Origin: Bacteroides stercoris ATCC 43183
GTDB lineage: Bacteria; Bacteroidota; Bacteroidia; Bacteroidales; Bacteroidaceae
Assembly: GCF_025147325.1 (NCBI RefSeq)
Contig: NZ_CP102262.1
Location: 3,224,001-3,288,000, forward strand
DNA length: 64,000 bases
Direction: 5' to 3'
Below are positions 7,305-29,644 of this stretch, in pieces. The position numbers and the translations under genes are program-made. The notes below the pieces were generated by a model, which did not search any database, had not been told where the DNA came from, and saw only the letters and a program-made list of their open reading frames with translations. Positions within the stretch are counted from its first letter, which is position 1; each line of letters begins with the position of its first letter.

Positions 7305-7332
7305 TATTTTATTAACTCATTTACCAAACATT

Positions 7333-10300: not shown

Positions 10301-10881
10301 CTGTGGGAATACCCTTGAAGGATTGGAACATCCAAATCAACTATGGGATAAAAACTGGTTTCAATGATGCTTTTATCATTTCTACCGAAAAGCGTGATGA
10401 GATACTAGCGAATTGTCAAACAGAAGATGAACGTGTTCGGACGGCTGAACTTATACGACCGATTCTTCGTGGCAGGGATATCAAGAGATATGAATATGAA
10501 TGGGCGGACTTGTGGATTATAGCCACATTTCCTTCGCGGCATTATGATATAGAAAGTTATCCTGCGGTGAAAAATTATCTTCTGTCAATTGGCATAGAGC
10601 GTTTAGAACAAACAGGAGAAACTCATATTGTTAATGGCAAAAAAATAAAAGCCCGAAAGAAAACTAGTAACGAGTGGTTTGAAACACAAGATAGCATCAG
10701 TTATTGGGAGGATTTTTCTAAGCCAAAAATTGTATGGAAAATAATCGGAAACCAAATGGCTTTTGCATATGATGCCAACAATTATGTAATGAACAATGCC
10801 TGTTATATTATGACAGGCGATCATTTGGATTATCTGTTGGCAGTATTGAATTTTCCAATAACTGAAGTAACCTTCGTGTAA
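7333..10881 (+). pseudogene. Eco57I/type IIG-like restriction-modification protein, 3'-truncated
   Basis: 1182 codons are open. Residues about 60-95 (EEDIDLAI...GLLIEVKST) look like a PD-(D/E)xK nuclease core. The methyltransferase has motif I DPAVGSGHF at about 545-553 and motif IV IIGNPPY at about 829-835, followed by YITSNKWMRAGYGEALRGYF; residues about 710-800 are a charged helical insert. Such proteins methylate adenine in a recognition site and cleave unmodified DNA. The C-terminal target-recognition region starts (IKTGFNDAFII, RPILRGRDIKRYE) but breaks off after LDYLLAVLN, and the last residues read into a truncated transposase on the other strand (junction about 10,855). About 100 or more residues usual in this family are missing, so specificity is probably lost. 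No second R-M subunit is nearby. Confidence 0.8.
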
Positions 10882-11539
10882 TCATACGAGTCTGTGATTT
10901 CCTGCGTTTACGCAGTTTGCTATAAGCAAGATAGGCACGGCGTACATCAAGATACTTGTTACGGGGACGTTGTATGTGCAAGGTCTGGCAATGTTTGCAC
11001 AGATGACGATGAAGCCATACAATACCTTCCCATAAGAGTTTGGTATCAGTAGGAAAACGCAGATGACTTTCATAACAGGTGGCATCGGTCATACAGACAT
11101 GAAGGTTCTCAAGATAAGGTTTCCAATGCTCGGCAAGAATGAGCTGGAGGGGCTCAACGTCAAGGCGATGCGCTAGTTCCTGACGAATTGCACTAACGAT
11201 TTTAGGATTGGTTAGTGGATGAAGCGGATCAATCTGAACACCACAAAACAACTGGTAATGAATATTACCGTTTAAATGCTCAATCAGTTGTGCATCGGAA
11301 AAGTTGGTATAGGACTTCAAGACCATCAAGGCTATTTTACCTTCGGGAGAAAAATAACTTTTACGACCCAAAGCAGAGGACTTCAAATGCATTTGTCGGG
11401 CCAGTTCCGAGAAAGGAAACAGAGCATGGAGGCGACCTAATTCACTCGTTGCAAAACTTTGACGATATTTTTTTAGCATATCGAACTCGGTAAAACCTAA
11501 ACGAGGTTCGATTTCTGAGATTTTTTGTATCTTTACCAT
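10856..11539 (-). mobile_element. Truncated DDE transposase (DUF772-type N-terminus)
   Basis: The start MVKIQKISEIEPRLGFTEFD and the segments LHALFPFSELARQMHL and SYFSPEGKIALMVLKSYTNF match transposases of the IS5/IS1182 kind with a DUF772 N-terminal domain. The first catalytic aspartate is probably in CMTDATCYESHLRFPTDTKL. The gene loses its 3' half at about 10,856, where it meets the truncated R-M gene; the last ~16 residues of the open frame are antisense of that gene. Because both genes are truncated at the junction, this is not a simple insertion but an insertion followed by deletion, or a recombination. It is inactive. Confidence 0.8.
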
Positions 11540-11606
11540 GTGTTTTTATTTTAGATTACCCCCGTTTTGGCCGTCAAACCGTTTTTTTGGGGGAATGCTT
11601 AAAGAT

Positions 11607-11645
11607 ACAAAAAAGGCAACTAACTCGCAATGAATTAGTTGCCTT
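11607..11645 (-). terminator. Hairpin terminator upstream of the truncated transposase
   Basis: An 11-bp perfect stem: AAGGCAACTAA (11613-11623) pairs with TTAGTTGCCTT (11635-11645), loop 11 nt. On the minus strand a T run follows (TTTTTTG, 11614-11608, overlapping the stem base). It lies upstream of the transposase start (11539) and would block transcription entering the element from outside, a common protective feature of insertion sequences. Confidence 0.65.
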
Positions 11646-11729
11646 AAATTTTATTATTTTAGGAATATCCCTGTTTTAATGATTGGTGTCTGGAACTGGT
11701 TGAGGAGTTATACTATAGACATTTACTGA

Positions 11730-11945
11730 ATGTCCCTGTATAGTGTCGATAATATTAAAGAAAAACTTGTTATCTCCCTATATGCCAAAGGAATGAGCGT
11801 GTCAGACATAGAAGAGGAGATGCGTGAAATCTATGAGATAGAACTGTCCACATCAGCTATTTCCATCATCACGAACAAAGTCAACCAGGCTGCTCAGGAA
11901 TGGCAGAACCGCCCTTTGGATCCGGTCTATCTCATCGTTTGGATG
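11730..11945 (+). mobile_element. IS256-family transposase fragment
   Basis: The frame reads SVDNIKEKLVISLYAKGMSV, SDIEEEMREIYEIELSTSAI, SIITNKVNQAAQEWQNRPLD, PVYLIVWM. This is the mid-N-terminal part of IS256-type (mutator) transposases, just before the first catalytic aspartate expected after the Y-x-I-V segment. Both ends are missing. The fragment stops within a few bases of the TAG stop codon of the converging C25-like gene at 11949, so it marks the edge of an old rearrangement at the end of that operon. Confidence 0.8.
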
Positions 11946-11948
11946 ATT

Positions 11949-14141
11949 CTACCTATTTTGACTTTTCAGCCTATTAATTGTTTTGGTAACTTCGTTCATT
12001 AGCTTTTGATTGGAAGTTCTAAATGTGTTAAGTTCTTTGATTATATCTGCTTTATTATAGTATAAATTATACCAGCCTAATGTTTCAGCAGCCAATATGC
12101 GAAGTTCTTCTTCTTGGCTTTCATTTTTTATAATGTTCAGTAATGGCTCAATAGCTTTAGCAATAGGTTTATTTCGGAACCTACTTATTTCGCTTTGTAT
12201 CTGTTTGGTAGTACTTTCCGGACTGTCAATAAGTGCAAAATCTCTTTCAAGTCCTTTCTTTTGGCGAGGAAGGTATTCTAACAATTCATTCACATAGGAA
12301 GAATCGTAGAAAGACCAATCGGCAGCCTGTTTCTTCAATTCATTCAAAGCCATATCATGGTCGAACGTGTTGATAGCACTAAAAATTCTGAAACGATGGC
12401 GGTTTTCATGTCCGCGTAATAAATAGCTTTCTATCCATGCCGGCAACAATTCCGGATTGCAATTCTTTTCAACGTATTCCACCGCATAACGACGGATCAG
12501 TTCATAACTGTCGTTCATGGCTGTCTGCAATACATCGGCAACCTCTGTCGGATAGTTCAAAGCTAATAGGCGTAATGCTTCCAACCGCACAACGAAATAG
12601 TTCGATTCGTGGTAACTTTTCTTCAGCAACTCAACGAGACCACTATAATTTGCCATTGACAATTGACGGAGCGCCATTGCCTGCATGTCAGCCATAGGGG
12701 AATTCAGCTGTTTTTTCCAGAATGTAACATTTCCTTCCTGCGCAACTAAAGCTTGGTTGATGTCCATATCCAGCCCGGCATTATTGGTGAAGTGAAAAGT
12801 CGGGTCACCGATCAGATGATTTTCCAAGAAGCAGGTAAAACGAGTGAACTGCCCGATGCGCATACCGGCAGCTAACAAGCCGAGAAATTCATCCGGCCAT
12901 TTATCTTGAATGGTGTTAACCGTACATCCCATAGTAGCAATGGTCTTACCCTTATTGAATATATAAGAGCCTACAATGTTGTCATCCAAATGGAAAGAAC
13001 CGTTGAAACAAGCATCGAACAATATAAAACGCGCATTAGGAGTCAAAAGACGAATATCTTCAGTATAGATATCCATATTACGGTTTACAATGGAATCCGA
13101 TTTTATTTTCTCCTCATCGAAAGCTTCCGCACACCAACTTTCAGGCACCCCATACTGCTTGGCATATTCTTTGATAGCAGCTTCACGCCCATGTTTCTTG
13201 GCGTATGAAGGCACTTTGCTTCGCAAGAATATTTTGGCATTCTCAATACTCAAATTAATACCGGAACCATTTTCATAGCCATTGATATACTGCATGGTGG
13301 GGCCACCGTGGTGATGGAATAGCATGACATCTAATCCTTCGCGCTGAATCTCGTTCAAGTATAATGGTTTCATCGGATAGCGCATGTTAAAATCATAGAA
13401 CTTCACTGTATTACCCGATTTGAATATTTGCGGCAATTGCTCACGTAAGGCTATTTGCTCACCGCTCCATGCCAAAGGATCTTCAGAATTGTAACCATGG
13501 CCACGGGCCATAGTCAGTTGGTCAAATGCATTTTGCTTTGCTTTTTCGGCAACTGCCTTTTTTAAGTAATCGCGTAGCATCTGATAACGGTTCTCACCTT
13601 CTAAATGTAATGGACGGATACGGGCCGAATAAATATCCGGTGAAATATACTGTTTAGAATCAGCACGCAATGTCATATAATGATAGTCAGGTATCAAACT
13701 GTCTTGTTTAATATAATCAAATTTTAATCCGAAGTCATCATAATAACGGTCGGAAGGAACGCTTGATTTCTGCCAATTGGCTTTGGGAGACCTTTTGAAA
13801 GCCGAAGATAGATGATGTGCATCACGAATCATTGGAATAGGGATGTCACCTATAAATACGCAACCCTCCAAAGGCGTTTTCTCATTCTCATGCAATTTGA
13901 CAAGTTGCTCACGAATAGGTTCGGGCCTTTTCCAATCATCAATTAGCAAGTAAGTACCTAAACCTTCTTTTTCTATACTGGTACGATAAGCATCAATTTC
14001 ACTTTTCGCTTCATCATAACTTTTCTGATCGACTACAATTGCAAAAGTAGTCTTTGTTTTTATACTAGGATGTACAACTGTTTGCGCCTGCATATCCTGT
14101 AAGCACAAAGCGGTAATTGCCAAAAGGATGTATTTATTCAT
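11949..14141 (-). CDS. Secreted C25-like (gingipain-like) cysteine peptidase with HEAT-like repeats, copy 1
   Basis: 730 residues. Sec signal peptide about 1-20 (LLAITALCLQDMQAQ). The N-terminal ~430 residues look like a clan CD/C25 peptidase: VPSDRYYDDF, a His motif LFHHHGG (H278 the likely catalytic residue), a Cys motif ILFDACFNG (C378) and the C25-like tail LIGDPTFHF. The spacing between His and Cys (about 100) is larger than in gingipains, indicating an insertion. From about 460 to the end, repeated helical pairs (MALRQLSMANYSGLVELLKK, YFVVRLEALRLLALNYPTEV, DSYELIRRYAVEYVEKN) look like HEAT repeats, a protein-binding scaffold. No type IX secretion C-terminal domain is seen. Last gene of the operon, 2 bp after copy 2. 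Protease activity is inferred from motifs only; the C-terminus looks complete by comparison with the paralogues. Confidence 0.75.
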   Translation of the reverse strand: MNKYILLAITALCLQDMQAQTVVHPSIKTKTTFAIVVDQKSYDEAKSEIDAYRTSIEKEGLGTYLLIDDWKRPEPIREQLVKLHENEKTPLEGCVFIGDIPIPMIRDAHHLSSAFKRSPKANWQKSSVPSDRYYDDFGLKFDYIKQDSLIPDYHYMTLRADSKQYISPDIYSARIRPLHLEGENRYQMLRDYLKKAVAEKAKQNAFDQLTMARGHGYNSEDPLAWSGEQIALREQLPQIFKSGNTVKFYDFNMRYPMKPLYLNEIQREGLDVMLFHHHGGPTMQYINGYENGSGINLSIENAKIFLRSKVPSYAKKHGREAAIKEYAKQYGVPESWCAEAFDEEKIKSDSIVNRNMDIYTEDIRLLTPNARFILFDACFNGSFHLDDNIVGSYIFNKGKTIATMGCTVNTIQDKWPDEFLGLLAAGMRIGQFTRFTCFLENHLIGDPTFHFTNNAGLDMDINQALVAQEGNVTFWKKQLNSPMADMQAMALRQLSMANYSGLVELLKKSYHESNYFVVRLEALRLLALNYPTEVADVLQTAMNDSYELIRRYAVEYVEKNCNPELLPAWIESYLLRGHENRHRFRIFSAINTFDHDMALNELKKQAADWSFYDSSYVNELLEYLPRQKKGLERDFALIDSPESTTKQIQSEISRFRNKPIAKAIEPLLNIIKNESQEEELRILAAETLGWYNLYYNKADIIKELNTFRTSNQKLMNEVTKTINRLKSQNR

Positions 14142-14143
14142 AT

Positions 14144-16345
14144 TTATAAACTTAATCTTTTGATTGTCTGTTCAAGCTCTGCTTTTAAATCTTCCGGAAG
14201 ATTGGCTGTTTGTTGCATCTTCTTTATTTCTTCAAGAATGTGTGGCCGTTGTACAGAATTAGTAAACCAACCTAATGCTTCGGCCATTACTACACGTACT
14301 TCCTGTGGATTACCGGCATCACGAATTACATTCAAATAATCATCCACGTGGAAATGGAATGTATAGTTACGCACATTGCGGATTGCACTGATACGTTTTG
14401 CTTCCGGTGCAGCTACATCCATCAAGGTCTGATGGACTTTTGCCTCTTGTACAAACATTCTTTCCAGGCTTCTTAGTAATCGTTTTTTCTCTTCGTTTTC
14501 ATTCAAACGGTCAACTTTTGCATAAAAGTCTTCTATTGTCTTTTCTACTTTCTCTTTCGGATAAAGGCTTAAAGCCTTGTTGGCACTCATTTGTACGCGT
14601 AAGCGTTCATTATGTTCGACCAATGCTTCCACAATAGCGGGCAATAAGGAATCGTCACCTACAAATCCAGCATAAATGGCACTTTGGCGAGCTACCATTT
14701 CATAAGTATCGTTCAAACCTTCGCGTAATGCTTCGATGAAGTTGTCGTCCTGATAACGGCTCAACAACTTGATAGCTTCCATACGAACCGTATTGAAGCC
14801 ACTTTCCCGGTACTTCTTCAGGAGCAACGGAGATAATTCCTTTTGGGTATCGGCGTCAGCCAGCATACGCATGGCCAAACTTTGTACATCAGCGTATGGG
14901 CTGTTTAACAAATTCTTCCAATAGGCTTTGTCATCTTTGTGTATTGTTATATCGGTACTTAAAGTATTGGCTTCGATAGGAGCAAAACGGAAAGTGGGAT
15001 CACCAAACAAATGACCTTCAAGTGATACGATTAGCTTATTGTATTGCCCGGCTCGTACACCATGGGACAACAAACCAATCATTTCAATAGTCCAGCGGTC
15101 TTGCAATACGTTACGGGTATTTCCTTGTGCTACTAATGTCTGACCGTCATTAAAGATATATTGTCCTGCTATATAGTCGTTTTCGTGAAAAGAACCGTTG
15201 TAGCACGCATCAAACATTATCATCTTCGGATTAGTGGAAAGATTTCTCTTCATTAAATCTTCCGTTACGATACGTTCATCAGCGTAGTGAAGAGAGTCTG
15301 CTTCCCAGAACTTAGGATTGTCCAGGTCTTTAAAAAACACCTCATTCACTTGTCGTTTTTCCTGCATCTGAATACGTAAGGTGTCTTTGTCACGTTTTCC
15401 AACATGGGACATGACTGCATTATAAAGTGTACTCTTCAACATTTTATAACGATTATTGAAATCAGTGCATGCCAATTCATCATTAATAAGCTGCCCTGTT
15501 GGCATTCCATGTTCATGAAACATAAATAAGTCAAGGTCCTTTCGTTGCAATTCGCTGAATAACTTATATTTCATAGGGTGTTTCATTCGGAAGTTCCAAT
15601 GTTTGAATCCCATTTGACGACCAAAAGCTAATGGAAAGTTCTCCATATAAGCTTTTTCGTCATCCATCCATACAATCAGGCAATCGGAATTGTAAGAAGC
15701 ACCATTGAATGAGAATACCCGATCTAATTGATTATGCTTATCTGCCTTGGCAGCAGCAGCTTTCTTCAGATATGAGGCAATGGCCGCATATTTATCCCCT
15801 TCCTTTTTTTCCGGATACTTGATACGAGCTGAATAGAAAGTAGGATTTAGCCGCTGGGGACTGTCTTCTGTCAATTTGTAGTAGAAATGCTGATGATTTA
15901 CTGAGTCTTGCCTGATGAACTCAAACTTTAAGTTCAGATCATCATAAAAGCGGTCGGTAGGTACGGAAGACTGATCCCAAGGAAAGGCTTTCTCATTCAT
16001 TTTGAATGCAGTAGTCATGTGTTGCGCATTACGTACCAATGCGACAGGCACATCGCCGATTAAAACCAGACCTTCCAATGAAGGGCATTCTTGATATGTT
16101 TTGATGATTATCTGTTTGACTTGATCTGGATTTTGCCAGTCACCGCTGATCAGATAAGTTGCCAAACCATCATCTTCAACCGCAGTTTTGTACTGATGCA
16201 TGGCATCTTTGGTATTTGCATAAGTTTGGTTATCTGTTATGATAGCAAAAGCGGTAGGTTGTTTGACCAATGGCTTTATGACTGTTGTTTGTGCATTTCC
16301 TGCCAATGGCAAAAGAAATGCCAGATATATTATTTTTTTAATCAT
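14144..16345 (-). CDS. Secreted C25-like (gingipain-like) cysteine peptidase with HEAT-like repeats, copy 2
   Basis: About 733 residues from the ATG at 16345 (MIKKIIYLAFLLPLAGNAQT), which gives a clean signal peptide. Same layout as copy 1: VPTDRFYDDL, His motif MFHEHGMP (H279), Cys motif IMFDACYNGSF (C381), then GHLFGDPTFRF. The C-terminal ~270 residues are helical repeats (YADVQSLAMRMLADADTQKE, FNTVRMEAIKLLSRYQD, DTYEMVARQSAIYAG). It begins 6 bp after the stop codon of copy 3, so the three are co-translated as one unit. Divergence among the copies is substantial although motifs are kept, so they probably have separate substrates or form a hetero-complex rather than being a recent duplication. 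Export to the periplasm or surface is expected. Confidence 0.75.
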   Translation of the reverse strand: MIKKIIYLAFLLPLAGNAQTTVIKPLVKQPTAFAIITDNQTYANTKDAMHQYKTAVEDDGLATYLISGDWQNPDQVKQIIIKTYQECPSLEGLVLIGDVPVALVRNAQHMTTAFKMNEKAFPWDQSSVPTDRFYDDLNLKFEFIRQDSVNHQHFYYKLTEDSPQRLNPTFYSARIKYPEKKEGDKYAAIASYLKKAAAAKADKHNQLDRVFSFNGASYNSDCLIVWMDDEKAYMENFPLAFGRQMGFKHWNFRMKHPMKYKLFSELQRKDLDLFMFHEHGMPTGQLINDELACTDFNNRYKMLKSTLYNAVMSHVGKRDKDTLRIQMQEKRQVNEVFFKDLDNPKFWEADSLHYADERIVTEDLMKRNLSTNPKMIMFDACYNGSFHENDYIAGQYIFNDGQTLVAQGNTRNVLQDRWTIEMIGLLSHGVRAGQYNKLIVSLEGHLFGDPTFRFAPIEANTLSTDITIHKDDKAYWKNLLNSPYADVQSLAMRMLADADTQKELSPLLLKKYRESGFNTVRMEAIKLLSRYQDDNFIEALREGLNDTYEMVARQSAIYAGFVGDDSLLPAIVEALVEHNERLRVQMSANKALSLYPKEKVEKTIEDFYAKVDRLNENEEKKRLLRSLERMFVQEAKVHQTLMDVAAPEAKRISAIRNVRNYTFHFHVDDYLNVIRDAGNPQEVRVVMAEALGWFTNSVQRPHILEEIKKMQQTANLPEDLKAELEQTIKRLSL

Positions 16346-16351
16346 GGCCAA

Positions 16352-18526
16352 TTAATTTTTAAGTCTGTAATATGTACGGTCGGCTTCTTCACGAAGGTTC
16401 TCGGATAAGCTCTTATCTTTTCTCAGTTGATCGCATACCCGAAGGATGTCAGGCTTCCGATAAGAATGAGTGAACCAAGCAAAAGCCTCCAATAAACAGG
16501 TTTTTAGCTTTTCACTTTCACTGGAGTCGGTAAGTAAAGCCAAGAGGCCGTCTACACAGGCATGTGCCATATGATTTTTCAGAGAATTGCAATAAAGGAT
16601 GCGCCAACGTTCGGAAGTTTCTTTGCTTAATAACTCTTTTTGCATGCTACGACTATTATTGGCATTCTCCAAAACCTTACGCATCTCCTCCTTGTCTTGC
16701 AACACATAGGTCTCAGCCATTACTTTATCAATTGCCGCCTGTACGGCTGCCTGATCAAAGACTTGAAGCCCCAAACTCACATTAAATGCCACACGCTCGG
16801 ATAGGTTGTCTTCTACATAGGCTTTGATTTGCGGATAAACATACTCGTTCAGTCCCACATGTTGCATCATACGAACAGAGGTGCGACGAATAAATTCATA
16901 GGAATCCGTAATGGCCAAGTGTAAGACTTCCCGGAAGTTTTTGTCACTAATCTTCTCAAGCAATGCCAAGCAGGTGAAACGTACCATCATGAACGAGGAA
17001 GTTTCAAAAGTTTTTCTTAATAAATCAGAAATACCCGGATAGTCATTGCGATAAAGGTTGTGCAAAGCAAAATTCTGTATGTCGGCATAGGGCGACTGTA
17101 ATAACTCCAACATGCGGGACTCGCTATATGGTTCTTTGAACAAAGCATTGGCATCTACCTCATTGATAGATTGAAAACGTAGAGTAGGGTCACCGGTAAT
17201 GTGCGATTCGAGAATATTCGTCAATTTAGCCCATTGCCCCACTCGTGCTCCCATACCTAACAGGCCGAGCATCTCGTTTGCCATTTTATCTTGCAGTACA
17301 TTGACTGAATTGGCAAAAGTAGTTACGCATTTTCCTTCCGACATGATATAACGTCCGGCAATGTAATCTTTTTCCCGGAAATCACCATTATAGCATGCAT
17401 CGAAAATTACCATACGGCTATTAGGCTTAAACTCTGTAACTTCCGACAGGATAATACCGGTGCGCAGGTCTAGTAAAGAATCTTCTGCAATTACTTTGGG
17501 ATCATCATAGCCTGCAATCCAAGTAGTGTCCAAACCGTATGTGTTTTTCATCATATCCAGCATTTCGTCGAAAGACTTTTTGTTGTTTTGCTTTCTACGC
17601 GCTAAACCACGATAATAGTACTTCATTGCATCTACATGAGCATTCCACCTATTAGTAGCGGGACTACCGGAAAGATATTGACGTTCGGGCATACCATGCT
17701 CATGAAAAATAGACAAGTCCAGATCTGTGCGTTTCAGCATATTAATGACATCGTCCTTGGGATAATCGCTGAAATTATAACGGATGAAACGGGCCCGTCC
17801 CTCTTTATCGAATACGCCCGGCATTTGTTCGCGAATAGTAAAGGTTTCCGGTGTCCATGCAGTCAATGAGTTAGAGTAAGAGCCATCACCTGTATAGGAG
17901 AAGAATTGGTCTAATTTATTGTTTATCTGGTGCTCAGCCACCACTTTTTTAAAATAGCGGCTGATTTGCGCATGCGGTTCTTCGCCGTTATCAACAGCTT
18001 TGACACGTGCAGAATATATGTCACACCGAATTTGCTGTGGAGATTTTATAGCCAAATTATAATAGAAGAAATTATTTTCGACACTGTCCTGTTTCAAAAA
18101 ATCGAATTGTAGGTCGAAATCATCGTAGAAACGGTCGCTGGGCACTGAAGAATCTCTCCAGTCATTGTTTTTCTCATCCATTTTAAAAGCGGAAGTCATA
18201 TGCTGGGCTTTGCGGAGCATTGGAATAGGGATATCACCGACAAATACCACTCCTTCCAATTTATCCTTTTTGTAGAGCTTAACAATAACTTTCTTTACAT
18301 CTTCCGGTTTATTCCATTCATTGTATACGATGAACGTAGGCAACCCTTCCATTCCTAGAATCTCCTGATAGGCTTTAAGCTCGGCTTCACAAGCCTGAAA
18401 TGTCCCTTTATCTGTAATTACAGCAAAAGAGGTGTCCTTTACTTTCACAGCCGGTTTAACAAATGTCTGTGCCCGCAGAGATAATATGCTGCAGAGCATC
18501 AAACTTCCAGTTATTAATTTACGCAT
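16352..18526 (-). CDS. Secreted C25-like (gingipain-like) cysteine peptidase with HEAT-like repeats, copy 3
   Basis: 724 residues, signal peptide about 1-19 (LITGSLMLCSILSLRAQ). Peptidase-like part: VPSDRFYDDFDLQFDFLKQD, His motif IFHEHGMPERQ (H277), Cys motif VIFDACYNGDF (C378), ESHITGDPTLRF. HEAT-like C-terminus from about 455 (YADIQNFALHNLYRNDYPGI, SFMMVRFTCLALLEKISDKN, DSYEFIRRTSVRMMQHVGLN). First of the three paralogues in transcription order, 30 bp after the DUF6850 barrel gene. All three keep both putative catalytic residues, which argues for enzymatic activity rather than a purely structural role. Possible tasks are cleavage of host or dietary protein for uptake through the linked TonB receptor, or processing of surface proteins; the sequence does not decide between them. 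Confidence 0.75.
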   Translation of the reverse strand: MRKLITGSLMLCSILSLRAQTFVKPAVKVKDTSFAVITDKGTFQACEAELKAYQEILGMEGLPTFIVYNEWNKPEDVKKVIVKLYKKDKLEGVVFVGDIPIPMLRKAQHMTSAFKMDEKNNDWRDSSVPSDRFYDDFDLQFDFLKQDSVENNFFYYNLAIKSPQQIRCDIYSARVKAVDNGEEPHAQISRYFKKVVAEHQINNKLDQFFSYTGDGSYSNSLTAWTPETFTIREQMPGVFDKEGRARFIRYNFSDYPKDDVINMLKRTDLDLSIFHEHGMPERQYLSGSPATNRWNAHVDAMKYYYRGLARRKQNNKKSFDEMLDMMKNTYGLDTTWIAGYDDPKVIAEDSLLDLRTGIILSEVTEFKPNSRMVIFDACYNGDFREKDYIAGRYIMSEGKCVTTFANSVNVLQDKMANEMLGLLGMGARVGQWAKLTNILESHITGDPTLRFQSINEVDANALFKEPYSESRMLELLQSPYADIQNFALHNLYRNDYPGISDLLRKTFETSSFMMVRFTCLALLEKISDKNFREVLHLAITDSYEFIRRTSVRMMQHVGLNEYVYPQIKAYVEDNLSERVAFNVSLGLQVFDQAAVQAAIDKVMAETYVLQDKEEMRKVLENANNSRSMQKELLSKETSERWRILYCNSLKNHMAHACVDGLLALLTDSSESEKLKTCLLEAFAWFTHSYRKPDILRVCDQLRKDKSLSENLREEADRTYYRLKN

Positions 18527-18556
18527 GTTTTGTAATATAGATTTCGTTATGTAGCA

Positions 18557-20119
18557 TTAAAAATTACATCCTAAACTTATCGATAAATGAGTACGCCCAT
18601 CATAATCATAGTCAGAGGTATTTATACGATCGAATACAACTTTTGCAAATAAGTTCATACGTCTGTTTTCTCTGACTTGTTGCGAATACGTTATCGACCC
18701 GCCAATACGATAGTAATCACAGGTATAATAATTAGTCAGCCCTTGTTGTAATTCGGTTACAGTTGGATAGTCTGCATGGCTGCCACCATATACATATTCA
18801 CCTCCCAGATTATTGTTATACGCAACATGAACATCTATTAAAAGCCTGCGATTCAAACTATTGCCTAAAACAAAATTTTTTTTGCCACCTAAGCCTAAAG
18901 ATAAATTTTCTGCATTCTGTACAGAATTAGGCATTAAATATTCATCGTCTTGCTTGGTATAATTCACATTCAATTCTGCTTTCCAACTATATTCATTCCC
19001 GCGGTTTCTGCTTAATGCATAATTAAGAGAAGCGGTTTGTGCCTTGTACGTAGAACGGATGTTATTATATAATTCCACCCAGCCACTTTGTGATTCAGAG
19101 TTATCGCGTTGAGAAATATACTGAATACCATCGATGTTACGATTTGTATATGTGGTTCTCATATAATTGGTATAGTCCTTTCCTTCCTGAATCATCGTTA
19201 AAGAAACATGAGCAGTTTTATCTTTTACACCGGCTATTTTTTTAGGAGTCGTATAGCTCTGCTGAACAGTTTCCGCTTTTACATCGTAACTGCCCTCAAG
19301 CAGTAAATTGAAAGAGGGCATACTGAAGTTGTACTGGAGAGCTCCACCGAAACGGTCTCCAATATAATTGCTGGTTACACCGCTGCCTATTCCTTTTATG
19401 GCTGTTCCCAAACCGTATAATATATAATAGTCCTGATCCACATAAGAGTTGACATTACTCATTCTTGAGTCTTCCTTGATAGAACTATACTTGAAACTTG
19501 CACCAAACTTGTGTGAATTATTCAACTTGTAAGTAATCCCCGGCGTCAGTCCCAGCGTATAAAAACGGGTATTCACACGCGGGTCGCGCTGTTTGGCAGC
19601 TAATGTAGCTACATAATTACCTTCCAACCCCAATGCCCAATGATTACCAAGTAAAGGAGTAGCTGCACGAAACTTCAGATCGTAATATTGATTTCTCCAT
19701 TTGCTTAAGTGCTGGTCTGCGACATAGTAAGGCATTCCCCTGAATGGATCGGCAATGGAGGCGTTATATCCGGCATCTGTCAGATTTTTTTGTGCAAAAT
19801 TAAATGCTCCCCACACATATGCATTTTTCAGATTGATAAAGCCTTCACTGGATACACCTACGATAGCCTCTTTCTGCCCCTCTTGCGGACGGCAATAGTT
19901 TCCGTCCTGTAAGTCATATCCCAATATAACATTCGAATAATTCTGAATATCATCGAATGGCATACCGGCAGCATTCTGTGAATGAGACCATAGTCGTCTT
20001 GTTTTCAATTGTTCCATAGCGGCGGGAGAGAAGCCCTGTGCCGCTCCCACCATACTTACAAGGCAGGCTATCATTACCAGCAGGCAGCTTTTCATATAGT
20101 TCATATATTGTTTTTTCAT
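18557..20119 (-). CDS. DUF6850-type outer-membrane beta-barrel protein
   Basis: 520 residues. Signal peptide about 1-27 (MKSCLLVMIACLVSMVGAAQ; a start at 20095 would give the shorter form). The mature part alternates short amphipathic strands throughout (FGASFKYSSIKEDSRM, FGGALQYNFSMPSFNLLLEG, LFAKVVFDRINTSDYDYDG) and ends with a terminal aromatic strand LSISLGCNF, as expected for an outer-membrane barrel. Overall pattern resembles DUF6850, a Bacteroidales family of unknown function; the assignment is from memory of family layout. It lies between the DUF4876 lipoprotein (23 bp) and the three peptidase-like genes (30 bp), so it probably forms an outer-membrane part of the same system. Confidence 0.65.
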   Translation of the reverse strand: MKKQYMNYMKSCLLVMIACLVSMVGAAQGFSPAAMEQLKTRRLWSHSQNAAGMPFDDIQNYSNVILGYDLQDGNYCRPQEGQKEAIVGVSSEGFINLKNAYVWGAFNFAQKNLTDAGYNASIADPFRGMPYYVADQHLSKWRNQYYDLKFRAATPLLGNHWALGLEGNYVATLAAKQRDPRVNTRFYTLGLTPGITYKLNNSHKFGASFKYSSIKEDSRMSNVNSYVDQDYYILYGLGTAIKGIGSGVTSNYIGDRFGGALQYNFSMPSFNLLLEGSYDVKAETVQQSYTTPKKIAGVKDKTAHVSLTMIQEGKDYTNYMRTTYTNRNIDGIQYISQRDNSESQSGWVELYNNIRSTYKAQTASLNYALSRNRGNEYSWKAELNVNYTKQDDEYLMPNSVQNAENLSLGLGGKKNFVLGNSLNRRLLIDVHVAYNNNLGGEYVYGGSHADYPTVTELQQGLTNYYTCDYYRIGGSITYSQQVRENRRMNLFAKVVFDRINTSDYDYDGRTHLSISLGCNF

Positions 20120-20142
20120 TGTTCTGTCTTTTTAGTTAATTA

Positions 20143-21414
20143 TTACAATGTGTGATTCCATGAAGGCATTTTTGCTCCATTACGACGCATTACAGGAACA
20201 ACGCCACGTTCAAAGTCATCCGTACTGTTGTTTGTATCCTGATATATATATGTACCTGTTTCTTCGCGAATAATAGGATTACCTTCTTCGTCTGTGGACA
20301 ATTTGCGAGCAATACCTAAACCGCAATAAGTAGCTCCTACCCAAGTAATACCTGCATCAAGTACACCGGGGACACGTTTTGCATTCATCTTTGACTCATT
20401 GTTTACTGCTTCAACAGCATCCAATACATATTTAATAGGTATTTTTGCATAATAAACATTGCTGTTCGGTTTGCTAAGATCTGTTGTCTTCATATTTTCA
20501 TCGTTGACCGGATCCCAAGCTTCTCCTTCAGGAACACGAAAAATCACATAAGCACCTCCGAATACGGATGTCAAATATTGTGGTATACTTCCCATCTCTG
20601 CTTTTCCTTGGTAGAAAACATGTTGCATATCATAAGCTGCCTGGTCAGGGAAGTTTGGATTATTCATATTAAACTCAAACTCAGAACTACTGCCGTCTAT
20701 AGGACTTTGAGGGTTATAGATGTCCAACTGATGGTTAGCGGCAAATTGAGAAATGATGCAAGATTCACCTGGCGCTAACGGATATTCGGTTCCATTTCCT
20801 GGAAATTTCCACACACGTTCTCCATATGCATAATTATTACCGTCCGCTTCCGGCCAAATAGGTAATTTAGTGGTAGCTGTACCCGGAGTTAAATTTGCGA
20901 AATAAATACCGTCCAAATACAAAATGTCAGCAGAGTTATTGTATATCTCATAGAACTGGTCTCGGAAATAGACTCCTCCTTTTTCCGGACGGCTACCGCA
21001 ATAATAAATCTCCTTGAATATTAATGGGCTCACTTTAAGCCCTTGTACTTCAATATTCAATGCGCTACCATGCTTAAATAATGCCGCATTTACAGAATTG
21101 CCATTGATGTAGTATTCATTGTTTTCTGTATCGATCGCTGTACCGGATACTGTTACCGAATAAATTCCGGGGATAATTCCGTCAACTTTCACACTATTAT
21201 CAGTTACTTCTTTTACATAATGTAAATCTTCATCGTAATTGTCGAACTTTACAGTCAGATCTTTCAGTGTGGATATATTTTCAACGGTAATATCCAAATA
21301 TACATCCACTGTGATAGGATTCACTTCTGCTGTGCCAGACATGTCCCTGAACGAATCGCATCCTATCAAAAGGGTACTTGCCAATGTAAACAAATATATT
21401 AAATATTTTTTCAT
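20143..21414 (-). CDS. DUF4876-type surface lipoprotein
   Basis: 423 residues. Lipoprotein signal with lipobox LLIGC at about residues 15-19. Residues about 30-150 form an Ig/transthyretin-like beta domain (NPITVDVYLDITVENISTLK, VTVSGTAIDTENNEYYINGN), then a larger domain with FKEIYYCGSRPEKGGVYFRD, QFYEIYNNSADILYLDGIYF, typical of DUF4876. The order TonB receptor, DUF4876, DUF6850 recalls SusC/SusD pairs, where a surface lipoprotein delivers substrate to its barrel; a substrate-binding role is therefore plausible but inferred. It starts 13 bp after the receptor stop codon, which implies one transcript. Confidence 0.7.
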   Translation of the reverse strand: MKKYLIYLFTLASTLLIGCDSFRDMSGTAEVNPITVDVYLDITVENISTLKDLTVKFDNYDEDLHYVKEVTDNSVKVDGIIPGIYSVTVSGTAIDTENNEYYINGNSVNAALFKHGSALNIEVQGLKVSPLIFKEIYYCGSRPEKGGVYFRDQFYEIYNNSADILYLDGIYFANLTPGTATTKLPIWPEADGNNYAYGERVWKFPGNGTEYPLAPGESCIISQFAANHQLDIYNPQSPIDGSSSEFEFNMNNPNFPDQAAYDMQHVFYQGKAEMGSIPQYLTSVFGGAYVIFRVPEGEAWDPVNDENMKTTDLSKPNSNVYYAKIPIKYVLDAVEAVNNESKMNAKRVPGVLDAGITWVGATYCGLGIARKLSTDEEGNPIIREETGTYIYQDTNNSTDDFERGVVPVMRRNGAKMPSWNHTL

Positions 21415-21427
21415 AACTTCCTAAACA

Positions 21428-24289
21428 TTATAAAGTGAGTGATAATTCCAGCCCAAAGAAAAATCGGTTATTCAATTGAATATATGAACCCGGATTACGT
21501 TTGGATTCTCTGCGCGGATAACTTCTGAACATATTGTTGGCAAAGAAAGAAACACGTAGCATATTGCTAATTTCTTTAGTTACATTCAAGTTAAAACAAA
21601 AATAAGGACTGTATGATTCTTTTATAGCATTATTATGACTTACATTATTCAACATATATCCATATCCTGCATCCTTTACTTGCTGGGTAGTGGTATATTT
21701 CCCCTTGGGAAACATATTTACAGACGCATCTTCCAATGCTAAATAGCCCACAGGTATAGAATCGTTTCCAAATGTATTCCAATTAGACTGCTGCCAAATA
21801 GCTTGTGCTGTCATCGTAACAACAAAACCGATACGCGGGATATTGTGAGTGGCACGTAAAGTCGTTACAAATTGTTGTTTGTAACTTGCATTGCCTTCTT
21901 GAGAATAAATGGCCACCGGTTTACGGGCTGAAGCAGCATCTTCGCTATTGTCATAGAAGCTATAACCCTGACGCCAACTCTTAGTACGCATCCATGAGCC
22001 ATTTATTTGGAAGGCCGTACGGATAGCATCAATACGTCCGATATTCAAATCAAATTCTAAACCTTTAGTTTCTATATTTAAATTATTAGTTGGTTTTGCA
22101 TAAGTAGACAATACCGGTAGGCTACTACTAAGCTCTATCCCGTTTTCTGTGCGCTGGTATTCATTGTAGATAAATGTATTGAAGGTGTTGAAGGTTTGGC
22201 TCATTACATAACCATCCTTCAGACGCTCCTTATAAGCTATTACATTCAGATTGGTTTTACCCACTCGTAAATTAAAACCGACTTCTGCTTTATGATTTTG
22301 GGCAATCTTCAAATCTGAGTTATCTACTTGCCGAACTTCTGTGGTAGTCATAAACAAGCGCTGGCTTTCCGGAATATTTTCATTGGTAAGCTCATTTATA
22401 TTGATATATTCAAAATATGCATTTTCTGGATATAAATAGAGAAGAGAAGGCATCTTTGCAGCAATACCGTAACCTCCCTGAAGACTTAATAGATTCGGAA
22501 TCAAATCAATGGATGCATTTACACGTGGCGAGAAAATGCCTCCTACTACTGAGGTATGATCATAACGCACACCAGCCTGAATGTTCAAATCATGCGTACC
22601 GCTTATGGACCATTTGAAATTATCTTCCACATATGCACCAAATTGGTTAATGAAAGGAATATCCTTATAGTTACGTGGACGGAAAGATGAATTATGACCG
22701 TATTGACTACGATAAGGAGGAGTACTTGGGGCATAAGTTTTTCCTTTACCAACGTTACCGTCACTCCGGAAATCCGCACCAATCAAGATGCGGTTGTTTA
22801 CATGACCGCTCGCCTTGAATAGAGAACTCGTCACTTTAGCAAACAAATTAACTTCACGACTATCGATCTCATAGTGTCCCAAATAGCTGCTTGGTAGATA
22901 AACAGCATAATGATTTATGTCTTCCGGTCCAAAATTAGTAATTTGATTACCATTGGCATCATAGATATGCTGACCTGCAAAGTTACTAAGTACCGCACCG
23001 TTTGTAGTGGTCATGGAATAAGGAGATGTAGCAGAACTGTATACGGTTTCATAATAACTGTCTTTATCCATATACGTACCTGACAATACATAGCGTAGTG
23101 TTTTTAACCAGCCCTTATTTATATTCCATGTACCATTGGTATTCAAAGTAAAACCTATATCGCGGCCTTCCGAAGCTGTTTTAGTTTGTTCATCATCAGG
23201 ATTACGTTCACGTTGATCCTTACCATAAATAAAATCAAAGCTGGAATTGGTACGTAACTTATTATTAAAGAAAGTATTTGAATAGAGCAACTTTGTTGTG
23301 GCACGCTGATAGTGCTGGTAACTGGATATTGGATTATTCGTATTATAAGCATAATCTGCACTTACATTTAAAGCGCCTTTCTTTTTTCCAAGTTCAAAAC
23401 CGGTTCCCATAGACACCTGATAGATATTGGGATTGGCTTTTGCTTTGACACGTAGCGGCTCACGACCAGCTTTTGTATTAATAATTACTGCTCCTGAGGT
23501 CAGATCACCATATTCAACAGAAGGGATACCACGAACGATTTGTATAGACTCTATATTTTCAGTAGAAATACTACGAACATCGGTTCCACCAGCCGGCGAG
23601 GCACCTCCGGCCAATGAAGCGGGTGTTTCCGTACCACTTAATACCGTAGGGCTCATCGCAGATAGATTAGCATTATTTGAGATGGGGGCACCATCACGAA
23701 TTATTGCGGTGCCCATAGCATTCATCGGAGCTTCCGGACCACTGGAACTGGAAACTTGACGGATGTTAATCTGTTGTGCCGAACTCATATCTTGATTCTG
23801 TGAAATTCCACCTGGCATCAATGACATTACATCATATAAACTGGTCGCTTGCATATGGTCCATAGCAGAGCGGGAAATGTGAGAAGATGTGGATTTGCCT
23901 GAACGGCTGTTGGTTGCAGTTACTGTAACTTCTTTCAACTTAAAATCCTCATTCCTCATTGTAAAATTAAGAACCAAATCCTTATTTACATTTATTAAGG
24001 TGTCAATGGAGACTTTGCCCAAATATTGAATTTGCATACGAATTTTACCAGTAGGTACGTTTTCCAGTATGTATCTACCATTTTCATCAGAGGTTGTCCC
24101 TAGTGCAATTTCAGGAATAGACACAGCTGCAAATTGTAAAGGCAAACGCTTGTTGTTGTGGTCGTACTCATAAACAGTGCCTGTAAGTTTTACTTTGTAA
24201 TTGTTTTGCGATTTGATAGGGAGGGCAATTCCTATGCAAATAAGTATAAACAAGTATATAATATTACACCCCAAAATACCTTTTTTCAT
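21428..24289 (-). CDS. TonB-dependent outer-membrane receptor of the C25-like operon
   Basis: About 953 residues from the ATG at 24289 (MKKGILGCNIIYLFILICIG...). Upstream in-frame ATGs exist, but a good promoter lies inside that extension (24316-24348), so the short start is preferred. Signal peptide about 1-28; carboxypeptidase-regulatory-like domain about 33-115 (LGTTSDENGRYILENVPTGK); plug about 125-290 (LKEVTVTATNSRSGKSTSS, IESIQIVRGIPSVEYGDLTSGAVIINTKAG with the conserved G-x-x-x-VEYGDLTSG stretch); 22-strand barrel to the end, finishing LNNRFFFGLELSLTL. It takes up a ligand across the outer membrane using TonB/ExbBD energy. First gene of a six-gene operon with lipoprotein, barrel and three peptidase-like proteins; the ligand may be a peptide, but nothing in the sequence proves this. 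Confidence 0.85.
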   Translation of the reverse strand: MKKGILGCNIIYLFILICIGIALPIKSQNNYKVKLTGTVYEYDHNNKRLPLQFAAVSIPEIALGTTSDENGRYILENVPTGKIRMQIQYLGKVSIDTLINVNKDLVLNFTMRNEDFKLKEVTVTATNSRSGKSTSSHISRSAMDHMQATSLYDVMSLMPGGISQNQDMSSAQQINIRQVSSSSGPEAPMNAMGTAIIRDGAPISNNANLSAMSPTVLSGTETPASLAGGASPAGGTDVRSISTENIESIQIVRGIPSVEYGDLTSGAVIINTKAGREPLRVKAKANPNIYQVSMGTGFELGKKKGALNVSADYAYNTNNPISSYQHYQRATTKLLYSNTFFNNKLRTNSSFDFIYGKDQRERNPDDEQTKTASEGRDIGFTLNTNGTWNINKGWLKTLRYVLSGTYMDKDSYYETVYSSATSPYSMTTTNGAVLSNFAGQHIYDANGNQITNFGPEDINHYAVYLPSSYLGHYEIDSREVNLFAKVTSSLFKASGHVNNRILIGADFRSDGNVGKGKTYAPSTPPYRSQYGHNSSFRPRNYKDIPFINQFGAYVEDNFKWSISGTHDLNIQAGVRYDHTSVVGGIFSPRVNASIDLIPNLLSLQGGYGIAAKMPSLLYLYPENAYFEYININELTNENIPESQRLFMTTTEVRQVDNSDLKIAQNHKAEVGFNLRVGKTNLNVIAYKERLKDGYVMSQTFNTFNTFIYNEYQRTENGIELSSSLPVLSTYAKPTNNLNIETKGLEFDLNIGRIDAIRTAFQINGSWMRTKSWRQGYSFYDNSEDAASARKPVAIYSQEGNASYKQQFVTTLRATHNIPRIGFVVTMTAQAIWQQSNWNTFGNDSIPVGYLALEDASVNMFPKGKYTTTQQVKDAGYGYMLNNVSHNNAIKESYSPYFCFNLNVTKEISNMLRVSFFANNMFRSYPRRESKRNPGSYIQLNNRFFFGLELSLTL

Positions 24290-24315
24290 AAGTAACATCA
24301 TATTTATTAATAATG

Positions 24316-24348
24316 CAAAATTATATGTAAATTTTAAATTAAAACAAA
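24316..24348 (-). promoter_or_regulatory. Promoter of the TonB/DUF4876/DUF6850/C25-like operon
   Basis: On the minus strand TAATTTTG (24323-24316) fits the Bacteroides -7 consensus exactly and TTTG (24348-24345) fits the -33 element, spacer 21 nt. The transcript would start near 24309, about 20 nt before the chosen ATG at 24289. Confidence 0.75.
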
Positions 24349-24412
24349 CCATTGTGTGTAACAAAACTAAAATTATTAAAAATACATGTTGTTTTTGTTG
24401 GTGCCGTTGCAT

Positions 24413-25021
24413 AATCTCACAGACCTCAACCGTCTGTTGTCTAACAATATAGCAACTGCATTATATTTAGGAAAATCCAATATATATTAGTACTTTATTT
24501 AAGTTCCATACATAGTAATACGGATCTTGAGTGATTAAAAGCAAACTGCAAATCTAAATAAAAAACGGGATGGTTGTAGTTCTGATATGCTATATCTTAA
24601 TACAACGCAGATAAATACTTATATTTTCATTGATAGATCTAACTAAGTTAAAAAACGGATTTTCTCCAAAATTCTTCTGATAGCTCCGTTCCAGCCTCAT
24701 ATTTATCGCACTTTACAGAAGCCCCAGTTCAAATATAAGGAAACTGTATCTCTCTTCGATAAAAGATCTATTTTAGGACGCAAAATTAGATATTACAAAA
24801 GATTATAAAAATACCATTTTTTGGGTATAAAAACGCATCTAATACCTATATATAGGTATTAAATATCATTGGCAATGTATGTTCCATTTCATTAAGCAAA
24901 CAATTTTTTGTATAAAATACAAATAGTACTTTTTTACCCACTTAAAAAGTGCAAGAATGTATAAAAGTCCATGTGTCAGCTATAATAGGGGCATGAATAG
25001 GCATCCGTTCCATACCTGTCC
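24413..25021. other. AT-rich intergenic region
   Basis: About 600 bp of AT-rich sequence between the TonB operon promoter and the chimeric gene. I see no gene. Just beyond it at 25032-25051 is a perfect 7-bp hairpin (CGGTCAC/GTGACCG). A short minus-strand frame at 25022-25219 overlaps the end of the chimeric gene and is not supported by any recognisable feature. Confidence 0.5.
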
Positions 25022-25208
25022 CTATTTGAATCGGTCACCCCACAGTGACCGGACATTACTCACCCAATTCGGATTCTCATTACAGTAGGCAACGAAAATC
25101 TGTATCAAGTTCCAAAGCCCGAGAATCATTCCATTAAACCTGGCAGGAATTGTGACAACATGTCTGCTTGAAACAGCTACTATTATGGTATCATGCTGTA
25201 TTGTTATG

Positions 25209-27089
25209 CTATATACCATGTTCTAAGTCAAAACTCTTTTTTTTTAGAATTGAAGGTTTAAGGCTCCATCCGAAAGTCAATATCACTTTCTCAAAATTCT
25301 TTTCTACAGCACCCTTTGTATAAGTTAGGATGTCTTTCTCTAGAAAATTTTTGAAATCAGATGAACTCATGTCTCTAAAAATGTTTATATATTCTTTTTT
25401 AAGAAATTCATTTATGGCATGTGCCGATATCTTTTTTTGCGTGCACTTTTCTATAACATATAAGTTGCTTGGTACCGGTACCATCGTGTCCAGCCCCATG
25501 AAGATATTACAGTCTACCATAAGAGTATAAGCGCCGCTCTCGGCAAGAGGTGCGGAAATGCAGTAATTGGCTTGCTCAAGCAGAGAATCCACCAGTTCTT
25601 TTGTGGAAGAACTGATACTATTGGCCAATTGTTCATATCCTCTTAGATTCAGTTGGGATATGGTCTTTTCGATAGCCGGGATGAATTTCATTCCTGGACC
25701 CAGGTTCAAATCAAATCTTTTGTAATAGACAAGAAGCTCATTCCAATCTTTGTACCGTGAAGGTTTGATGATATTTACATTGTCTATACCATGTTGTTTA
25801 AGATACTCGCCGGAGGAAAATGCATCTTCTTTGAAGGTCTGTGTGTTTCCATCCGGGAAACTTAAATAGATGGTCTTATATGTGTCTCCAGTGTTGGTCC
25901 TTGCAAAAGCTTTACATTCCTCACCTTTGAGATAATATGCTGTGGTGATGTCAAAACCATTACCGCTGGCATCATTGTCATAGCAACAATTCCACTTTAC
26001 CTTATCAGATGGGAATATACGGCTTATATTCTCTATTTGGGATTTGGTGACATATCCCCCCGTGCTTATGAATGCGCATGTGGTTTCTTTAGTATAATGG
26101 TTTATTTCGTAGAAACTCATTGCGTCAATAGCGGATTCAAAGAGATATATGTCTGTAACCTTGTCAAAAGGAACAAAATTGGCCATCCAACAGCTTTGTG
26201 CCTTGTCACCACCCGTGGCAAAGGCTTTATAATTGGTATTGGTCTCTGCAAAATAGTTCCTCATTTCAAAGTTAAGGATTTCCATCTGGGAGGGTTTGCG
26301 GAATGGAAAGCCGATATGATTGTTTTTTCCTACCTGGTAGATGAACAGTCTATTGGCGAAATCCTCCACAGTCTGTGGAGAGAGCTTCCTTTGGACGGTC
26401 AAATATGGATTATCCTTTTTGATAGGACGAGGATTCCAATAATTCAAATTGGATTCAATATCATTTGGATTCAGTCCCAGCAGAGGATTGTTTACCGTTT
26501 CGGTATCTTCATTGGTGATCTGTTGAGTAGGCATTGGTACACCATCAATGACGAAGAGAGGCTGGGTTCCTCCTGTGACGGAGTTGACACCTCTGATTCT
26601 GAAAGTCATTCCGCTTGACAATGAACCGTCTGTGGGGATAATCTGTACTCCGCTGATTTTGCCTTGTAGTGCTTGCAACGTCTGCGTAGAACTACTGTTT
26701 ACAATATCTTTTATATTCACAGAAGCAACGGCGGTTGCAATATCACTTTTTCGCTGGCTACCATAGCCTACAACAACCACCTCATCCATCTCTGTGACTG
26801 AAGGGTCTAGAATGATATCAAATCTTCGGTTCTTTCCGATAGTGATAGTTTTGGGCTTATATCCCAGATAACTGATGACCAGTTTTTCAGAAGGAAGTAC
26901 TTTTATCGTGAACTTTCCTTCTAAATCGGTGATTACTGCATTGGTGGTACCTTCGATATTTATCGTGGCACCGATAAGAGGTTCACTCTTCTCATCCAAC
27001 ACTTGCCCTGAAATAGTTACTTGCTGTGCTAATGCTACAGTGAAATGTAGTATTAGAAACAATGTGCTTAATAGTACTTTTCTCTTCAT
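25209..27089 (-). CDS. Chimeric protein: SusC-type receptor N-terminus fused in frame to a toprim domain
   Basis: From the ATG at 27089 (MKRKVLLSTLFLILHFTVAL) residues 1-213 are a SusC/RagA-type start: signal peptide to AQ (about 22), CarboxypepD_reg-like domain (ISGQVLDEKSEPLIGATINI), the DEVVVVGYGSQRKSDIATAV linker, and plug (LQGKISGVQIIPTDGSLSSG, FRIRGVNSVTGGTQPLFVID) ending at GLNPNDIES. A receptor would continue with IEVLKDAS. Instead the frame switches near 26,450 to a toprim-containing protein of mobile-element type: IGFPFRKPSQMEILNFEMRN, then LFESAID (catalytic Glu about 318) and CYDNDASG (Asp about 371 and 373). No stop intervenes. The result is probably a recombination product without function: a toprim nuclease/primase-like domain would be exported, and the receptor lacks its barrel. 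A full-length product is possible in principle because all 627 codons are open. Confidence 0.75.
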   Translation of the reverse strand: MKRKVLLSTLFLILHFTVALAQQVTISGQVLDEKSEPLIGATINIEGTTNAVITDLEGKFTIKVLPSEKLVISYLGYKPKTITIGKNRRFDIILDPSVTEMDEVVVVGYGSQRKSDIATAVASVNIKDIVNSSSTQTLQALQGKISGVQIIPTDGSLSSGMTFRIRGVNSVTGGTQPLFVIDGVPMPTQQITNEDTETVNNPLLGLNPNDIESNLNYWNPRPIKKDNPYLTVQRKLSPQTVEDFANRLFIYQVGKNNHIGFPFRKPSQMEILNFEMRNYFAETNTNYKAFATGGDKAQSCWMANFVPFDKVTDIYLFESAIDAMSFYEINHYTKETTCAFISTGGYVTKSQIENISRIFPSDKVKWNCCYDNDASGNGFDITTAYYLKGEECKAFARTNTGDTYKTIYLSFPDGNTQTFKEDAFSSGEYLKQHGIDNVNIIKPSRYKDWNELLVYYKRFDLNLGPGMKFIPAIEKTISQLNLRGYEQLANSISSSTKELVDSLLEQANYCISAPLAESGAYTLMVDCNIFMGLDTMVPVPSNLYVIEKCTQKKISAHAINEFLKKEYINIFRDMSSSDFKNFLEKDILTYTKGAVEKNFEKVILTFGWSLKPSILKKKSFDLEHGI

Positions 27090-27173
27090 AGTGCAGATAT
27101 TAAAGTTTATAATAAGGATTAATACAATTAGATTTAAAATGGTAGTGCAAATAAAGCGAATTATAATATCCAT

Positions 27174-27545
27174 GTTTTGACCTATTGTACTTTTCTCTTG
27201 ACCAAATTACAGACTTTTTCTTCAAAGGTAATCGCTTTCTATTAATTTCATTTATCACCGCGTAAAATTATTCGATTGGACTTTTTATAGTGAGTATTAT
27301 CATGGGGAGTATTAAAAAAGATTGGATATGAAAAATAGTATGTTAAATCATTCTGTTTTCTCAAATATGCAGTGGGGTGTGAGCGCAAGGAAAAATATCT
27401 GTAGAAATTGATAATAATGTATTTTATTCAAACTTTCCATTTATCCAAACTCTATCAGTTATCTGCACTTAAATCAGGCTTTGATATTTCAAGAGTTTGG
27501 ATAAATGATTAAGGATTCAGTCTGCATTAATACCGAACATAGCAG
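27174..27545. other. Intergenic region with a long inverted repeat
   Basis: No gene seen in about 370 bp upstream of the chimeric gene. The main feature is the 16-bp inverted repeat at 27438-27507, described separately. The right border is the truncated end of a group II intron. Confidence 0.5.
27438..27507. repeat. Perfect 16-bp inverted repeat with 38-bp centre
   Basis: CATTTATCCAAACTCT (27438-27453) is repeated in inverted form as AGAGTTTGGATAAATG (27492-27507). The 38-bp centre shows no complete TAnnTTTG promoter on either strand. It could be ends of a small mobile element, a protein-binding site or an inversion site upstream of a SusC-type gene; the short centre makes an invertible promoter less likely. 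Confidence 0.7.
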
Positions 27546-28220: not shown

Positions 28221-28346
28221 ATTACACTACTAAGGTAATGCTTTTATAGGAGAAGTCACATCTGTAAAAAACTTATTATCATGCAATTATCTTACTTTAT
28301 CTTAGGCTAAAAGCCCTTATTCAAGGTGTCTGTATCCTATCATCCG

Positions 28347-29615: not shown

Positions 29616-29644
29616 GATATGCCTTCTTGGACAATGACAACGTT

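Follow-up and report, generated by a model that had tools for sequence, protein, structure and literature searches.

The gingipains of Porphyromonas gingivalis serve haem and iron acquisition by digestion at the cell surface. A different arrangement, protease-associated import, joins TonB receptors to M16 proteases across the Proteobacteria; in the available part of that article Bacteroides is mentioned once, regarding SusC clustering (PMC6793856). Here we describe a six-gene operon in a 64,000-nucleotide stretch of the Bacteroides stercoris ATCC 43183 genome (NZ_CP102262.1, positions 3,224,001 to 3,288,000), hereafter called the window. The operon joins an outer-membrane core, i.e. a TonB-dependent receptor, a DUF4876 lipoprotein and a DUF6850 barrel, to three paralogous proteins that we have named HepA, HepB and HepC and that combine a gingipain-like domain with a HEAT solenoid. 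In related loci, the same core is followed by other peptidases or by a module of the ABC/PepSY type.

An iron link can be traced in print. Under iron depletion, BT1933-39 of B. thetaiotaomicron, which appear to correspond to our operon, were up 3.5-7.4-fold, and two sets of core relatives responded as well, PG1019-22 (20.8-214.5-fold) and BT3625-33 (38.1-128.1-fold) (PMC10434189, excerpts). The P. gingivalis DUF4876 gene appears in one expression table (PMC10101095) and is lower with more haemin in another (PMC10470040), as far as the accessible parts of these tables go. Our literature search, which had bioRxiv and most subscription journals outside its reach, found nothing linking DUF4876 or these HEAT proteins to peptidases, and a single paper under the individual B. 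thetaiotaomicron gene names.

Three gingipain-fold proteins behind an outer-membrane core

According to the list of open reading frames (ORFs), six tightly packed genes occupy positions 11949-24298 of the window, all on the minus strand. In transcript order they encode a TonB-dependent receptor of 956 residues with CarbopepD_reg_2 and Plug domains (21428..24298; PF13715, 2.9e-13, and PF07715, 9.1e-12), a DUF4876 lipoprotein of 423 residues (20143..21414; PF16215, 4.9e-56), a DUF6850 predicted outer-membrane barrel of 520 residues (18557..20119; PF21012, 5e-115), HepA (16352..18526), HepB (14144..16345) and HepC (11949..14141). The successive gaps are 13, 23, 30, 6 and 2 bp, so that the six genes and the spacing of 2-30 bp given in the original prediction, made from the DNA letters alone, were recovered, as were its DUF4876 and DUF6850 assignments, both borne out by Pfam. 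The DUF4876 protein has the same letters as BT_1938 (PDB 4Q1Z) across 399 aligned residues, and its lipobox Cys19 is invariant in an alignment of 49 sequences; the literature search found no publication on this structure. The barrel gene is named 'DUF6850 family outer membrane beta-barrel protein' in NZ_OY725920. Sequence searches of the PDB gave nothing at E <= 0.1 for the receptor and a chance match only for DUF6850.

HepA consists of a signal peptide, a domain of gingipain fold (residues ~29-456, with H277 and C378) and a HEAT solenoid (~460-724); the corresponding residues are H279 and C381 in HepB and H278 and C378 in HepC, which puts 100-102 residues between His and Cys. The paralogues share 33-36% identity (HepB has 36% to HepC and 34% to HepA), and no fourth copy was found in the host genome. 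In all 240 full-length Hep sequences (237 from fetched loci, near-copies included, and the three from the window; 205 are distinct after trimming) the His, Gly and Cys are identical. The motif is therefore beyond chance, and the idea that it arose by chance was dropped; the H-G and Cys motifs described initially for three divergent paralogues are confirmed. In the predicted structure of HepA, a second structural aligner showed the catalytic domain to be of gingipain fold, and H-G and Cys sit after adjacent strands (271-275 and 372-375), as expected of a catalytic pair; HepB and HepC probably share this fold, to judge from their identity to HepA. The caspase-like fold anticipated at the outset is thus supported, by the model for HepA and by identity for the other two, and a HEAT-only scaffold lacking an enzyme-type domain was rejected on the same ground.

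Pfam agrees with the predicted HEAT-like C-termini, since HEAT_2 was found in the C-terminal part of all three proteins (below the cut-off in HepA); apart from these repeats it gave only sub-cut-off chance matches. Peptidase_C25 (PF01364) matched none of the three window Heps, which we therefore term C25-like rather than members of C25. In the same HEAT-fused family, however, three of five relatives tested (P0183, P0134 and P0135) are above the PF01364 cut-off, and 7 of 60 members match it at E <= 0.01.

Distribution and neighbourhood

Hep proteins were found in 20 of 158 genomes of the genus, with three copies in 12 and one in 8. All eight single copies score best as HepC; two of them (L064 and L066) group beside the main HepC branch in the tree, and one (L060) is at a contig end. 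In a midpoint-rooted FastTree tree, HepA, the first gene after DUF6850, forms a large supported branch across Bacteroidales, and so does HepC, the third gene, whose branch includes copies located upstream of the receptor in other lineages; the second genes split into two branches, one containing HepB. At least one core gene stands alongside Hep in 75 of 79 named loci. The remaining four comprise three that begin at or fill a contig end (L073, L101 and L114) and one (L121) with no core gene in view.

In a scan of the phylum, Hep matched at E <= 1e-20 in 7 of 395 genomes, an undercount because scoring was limited to two candidates per genome; B. stercoris itself yielded two of its three copies. 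Five of the genomes lie outside the class: the receptor and DUF4876 are near Hep in four, with DUF6850 too in three, and the fifth is clipped. Three Heps from outside the class keep H-G and the Cys (FDECFNG or FDQCFNG). Conservation of the neighbourhood, proposed as a check, is thus seen in most named loci and also beyond the class. In L285, L287 and L289, further secreted proteins with a NYPNPFNP-type tail, like that of the type IX secretion system (T9SS), are encoded between DUF6850 and Hep, and in L289 an ORF interpreted from its letters as an M16 peptidase adjoins the Hep gene.

Exchange of what follows the core

DUF4876 is present in 71 of 393 genomes of the order. We examined 92 loci (80 fetched out of 108 listed match rows, and 12 of 13 earlier stretches, L028 being omitted). 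Same-strand peptidases follow the core in 22, some of which have several: Hep in 12, M16 in 7, S46 in 5, Met-zincin in 3 and one unconfirmed papain-like protein. In four more a peptidase is nearby but upstream only. In 36 loci, none of which contains a peptidase, the core is followed by an ABC/permease/DUF4857 module, in many cases together with PepSY and a small lipoprotein. Loci with both back ends, defined as a peptidase plus at least two markers of the ABC module, number 0, against 8.6 expected under independence; single-marker loci are L203 (Hep and one ABC gene) and L023 (Met-zincin, S46 and one PepSY gene). The M16, S46 and Met-zincin assignments are Pfam-confirmed in L023, L024 and L027, and elsewhere mean phmmer similarity to these at E <= 1e-8. 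With those three loci removed, such peptidases take 11 of 285 gene places in the run behind the core versus 3 of 431 further downstream (Fisher p 0.004, places not being independent).

On a tree of 67 DUF4876 proteins, the ABC and peptidase states require at least six changes, of which well supported branches force five; for the five M16-only loci the figures are five changes and four forced. What stands behind the outer-membrane core has thus been exchanged repeatedly. This tree was made by a quick method with the Shimodaira-Hasegawa-like approximate likelihood ratio test (SH-aLRT) as its sole support, has several long branches and carries state labels assigned by hand. L242 is labelled Hep in it, though counted as upstream only in the survey, and of its 21 Hep rows 8 represent the window plus seven Hep loci gathered elsewhere in the analysis.

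Other peptidase genes were seen around the core. Six Hep loci (L205, L218, L226, L227, L242 and L245) have, directly upstream of the receptor, an M16-like gene of opposite orientation; in L218 one gene separates the two. Near some loci there are also S9 and S37 peptidases, for the most part encoded on the other strand or at some distance, and these carry no weight in our argument. The 'papain-like' gene beside Hep in L135, L145, L064 and L220 is a reading of the sequence: Pfam gave no peptidase match in the first three, and that of L220 was found by similarity to them.

Location of the Hep proteins

By a simple hydropathy rule, 229 of 237 Hep sequences have a hydrophobic N-terminus, with signal peptides that look like type I, and a lipobox occurs in 1 of 237. 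The matched catalytic domain of HepA begins at residue 29, just past the signal peptide, leaving no prodomain. Of 60 family members scanned, 0 matched a model of the T9SS C-terminal tail, and the host genome had no match either (the model was positive in 2 of 14 control genomes), in agreement with the absence of such a signal noted initially. The host gave 0 matches to C25/PorU, found as C25 in 53 of 60 genomes sampled from the order; a separate PF01364 search of the host was also negative, but the 14 control genomes were equally silent. A T9SS-secreted gingipain system was rejected on these grounds. The periplasm seems to be the simplest location, and periplasmic processing fits better than surface processing because the signals are type I-like, lipoboxes are nearly absent and the host has no detectable PorU/C25 or T9SS tail.

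Proposed function and alternatives

We tentatively propose, with a little less than even confidence, that the operon encodes an iron-regulated system for import across the outer membrane, with periplasmic peptidases dedicated to it. The lipoprotein (DUF4876) and the receptor would capture a ligand that either is a polypeptide, such as an iron- or haem-bearing protein or peptide, or travels on one, and TonB-driven import would then bring it into the periplasm, the DUF6850 barrel being the third component of the core. In the periplasm, the three putative cysteine peptidases, each using its HEAT solenoid to bind substrate, would cut the cargo and so release iron or a cofactor. No single observation argues more strongly for import and subsequent digestion than the exchange of back ends with M16, the family of the Fus protease. 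The gingipain-like fold, the conserved neighbourhood, the missing T9SS tail and the logic of peptidase plus receptor in the original prediction survive; in place of its surface processing, periplasmic processing is the better guess.

Several observations weigh against this proposal. The one calling most for caution is that the core pairs equally readily with ABC/PepSY back ends, which suggest small ligands, so that the core by itself does not imply a polypeptide cargo; moreover, 30 of the 92 loci, several of them clipped, have neither back end. The gingipain match of HepA came from the second aligner only, no gingipain being among the top 50 Foldseek hits, and hhalign of Hep against an alignment of PorU-like C25 proteins gave no significant match (E 0.079 and a probability of 0.7 of 100, in the wrong region). 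PDB sequence searches with HepB and with the Hep profile returned HEAT-type and weak chance matches, no gingipain. The window operon has no FusB-like TonB gene, and in the B. xylanisolvens XB1A copy (L049, L068) the receptor is split into two ORFs, the remaining five genes appearing intact. In the three loci read outside the class, one or two proteins with T9SS-like tails stand between DUF6850 and Hep, and therefore surface parts may exist there. Finally, five genes of BT1933-39 are equated with ours by published names and order, and the induction of this locus is modest next to that of BT3625-33 and BT2063-65 (PMC10434189, in its available part).

What else could explain the operon? By analogy with P. 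gingivalis, Heps might be exported to the surface or into vesicles along some other pathway and digest host proteins there, the receptor and lipoprotein importing the haem or iron set free. The fold, the reported iron induction of core relatives and the benefit of haem release under iron limitation are in its favour; we nevertheless regard it as unlikely, given the lack of a T9SS tail, of a prodomain and, in all but one sequence, of a lipobox, and a host devoid of the C25/PorU proteins common in its order. Another possibility is that a peptidic siderophore or small peptide is taken up and trimmed or linearised in the periplasm. The ABC-type modules joined to the core make small ligands plausible and three divergent paralogues could mean three specificities, but swapping with M16, S46 and Met-zincin fits the breakdown of proteins or oligopeptides at least as well and the large HEAT solenoids would suggest a large substrate, and we give this explanation only a small share of our confidence. 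It is less probable still that Heps serve the envelope itself, by maturing or regulating the receptor, DUF4876 or DUF6850 instead of acting on imported cargo. Their strong linkage to the core and their periplasmic-type signals would agree with such a role; related cores, however, occur without Hep and with ABC-type back ends, and the alternative peptidases are general degraders.

A broader interpretation, possible but doubtful in our view, is that a class of whole-protein import peculiar to the Bacteroidota exists, in which the core takes in iron or haem proteins for digestion by plug-in peptidases (gingipain-fold HEAT peptidases, M16, or Met-zincin plus S46), sister ABC/PepSY loci take small ligands, and the window system travels between species. 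Import with periplasmic digestion, if correct, would offer a function class for two DUF families and for a large family of gut-bacterial 'HEAT repeat' proteins, would take the gingipain fold out of virulence at the surface and give it a probable role in processing cargo in the periplasm, and would allow a direct test of whether Bacteroidota import proteins for iron.

Gene starts, promoter and mobile element

The receptor most likely starts at 24298, because a near-identical annotated record has a 956-residue receptor from there; the starts at 24348 (original prediction) and 24412 (mechanical ORF) are probably too far upstream. The start codon of HepB is the ATG at 16345. A promoter-like pair, TTTG - 21 bp - TAATTTTG, lies directly 5' of the receptor ATG (24316..24348, minus strand), as a motif match to the Bacteroides promoter consensus; its TAnnTTTG element is 25 nt 5' of the ATG. 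A single promoter for the six genes is compatible with the sequence.

To judge from blastn matches of ~99.9% identity with near-coincident ends, the operon is carried on a mobile element (3333..44980) common to several species. The left ends of the matches are 3348, 3331, 3333 and 3333 in four genomes (matches L273-L276), and the right ends 44978, 44978 and 44984 in three of these (matches L268-L270) and 44978 in B. finegoldii (L147); in the fourth genome the match breaks off at 30838 and a segment near 8873-10203 is inverted. One copy is without 10949-11671 and 23827-23874. Near-identical operon DNA occurs in Bacteroides bouchesdurhonensis, B. xylanisolvens XB1A, Butyricimonas sp. Marseille-P3923, Phocaeicola faecicola (match over 11645-24944 only) and a B. 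finegoldii record labelled plasmid yet carrying housekeeping genes. Integrases and a tRNA-Ser gene are beside the right end. Since several species share the element, the operon may be a trait for iron competition that moves through gut communities.

In the region 44952-46353, the end of the element falls within a 358-residue tyrosine integrase ORF, ~27 bp from the 3' end of this ORF and near tRNA-Ser(TGA); because matches to other genomes stop together there, the attachment site may lie in the end of the integrase gene. A second uptake locus (31538-41537, minus strand) encodes an ABC transporter, Peripla_BP_2, a TonB receptor, a YncE/DUF5074 protein and a PKD-like protein, and resembles cobamide loci of the BtuG type. 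At 25209-27173 (minus strand), a 654-residue ORF contains the N-terminal part of a SusC/RagA receptor and continues in frame into DUF3991 and Toprim_2; as NZ_OY725920 has a gene of comparable size at the equivalent place (13664-15544), a local assembly error is improbable. At 7333-11671, a Type IIG/Eco57I-like methylase-restriction ORF (1182 residues) adjoins an ORF with a DUF772 transposase domain; 10949-11671 is unmatched in the B. xylanisolvens copy, as if an insertion differed.

Comparison with known systems

BT1933-39 are the closest published locus: their gene names fit one transposase and our six genes, the DUF4876 protein of the window is identical to BT_1938 where compared, and the locus is listed as iron-responsive. 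In the parts of the record available, they are given as hypothetical, HEAT, DUF4876 and receptor genes, with no mention of a peptidase nature or of swapped back ends. The claim of an undescribed system therefore has to be narrowed, given that this iron-induced locus is already in print and BT_1938 has a crystal structure. Added here are the alternative peptidase or ABC/PepSY back ends on the receptor-DUF4876-DUF6850 core and the location on a mobile element. BT3625-33 and related loci share the type of core and, for BT3625-33, a strong iron response (PMC10434189, excerpts), but have an ABC/PepSY back end. SusCD-type loci differ in their lipoprotein: SusD-family models of Pfam matched nothing in the operon, and the protein beside the receptor is DUF4876, the structure of 4Q1Z.

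With the gingipains RgpB and Kgp (family C25, clan CD) the Heps share the gingipain-type catalytic fold and a conserved His-Gly and Cys. They differ in the wide His-Cys spacing (33 residues in RgpB), in having a HEAT solenoid in place of the Ig-like domain, in lacking prodomain and T9SS tail and, for those of the window, in escaping PF01364. Fus (FusA/FusC) and Ydd/PqqL likewise have a TonB receptor and a signal-peptide-bearing peptidase (by fold, in our case) in one operon, with a link to iron, and M16 peptidases are found in some other loci sharing the core of the window. Those systems belong to Proteobacteria, ours to Bacteroidota, and the window has gingipain-fold proteins instead of M16, an extra lipoprotein and a second barrel; in the absence of M16, we would say that the operon may work like a Fus system, not that it is one.
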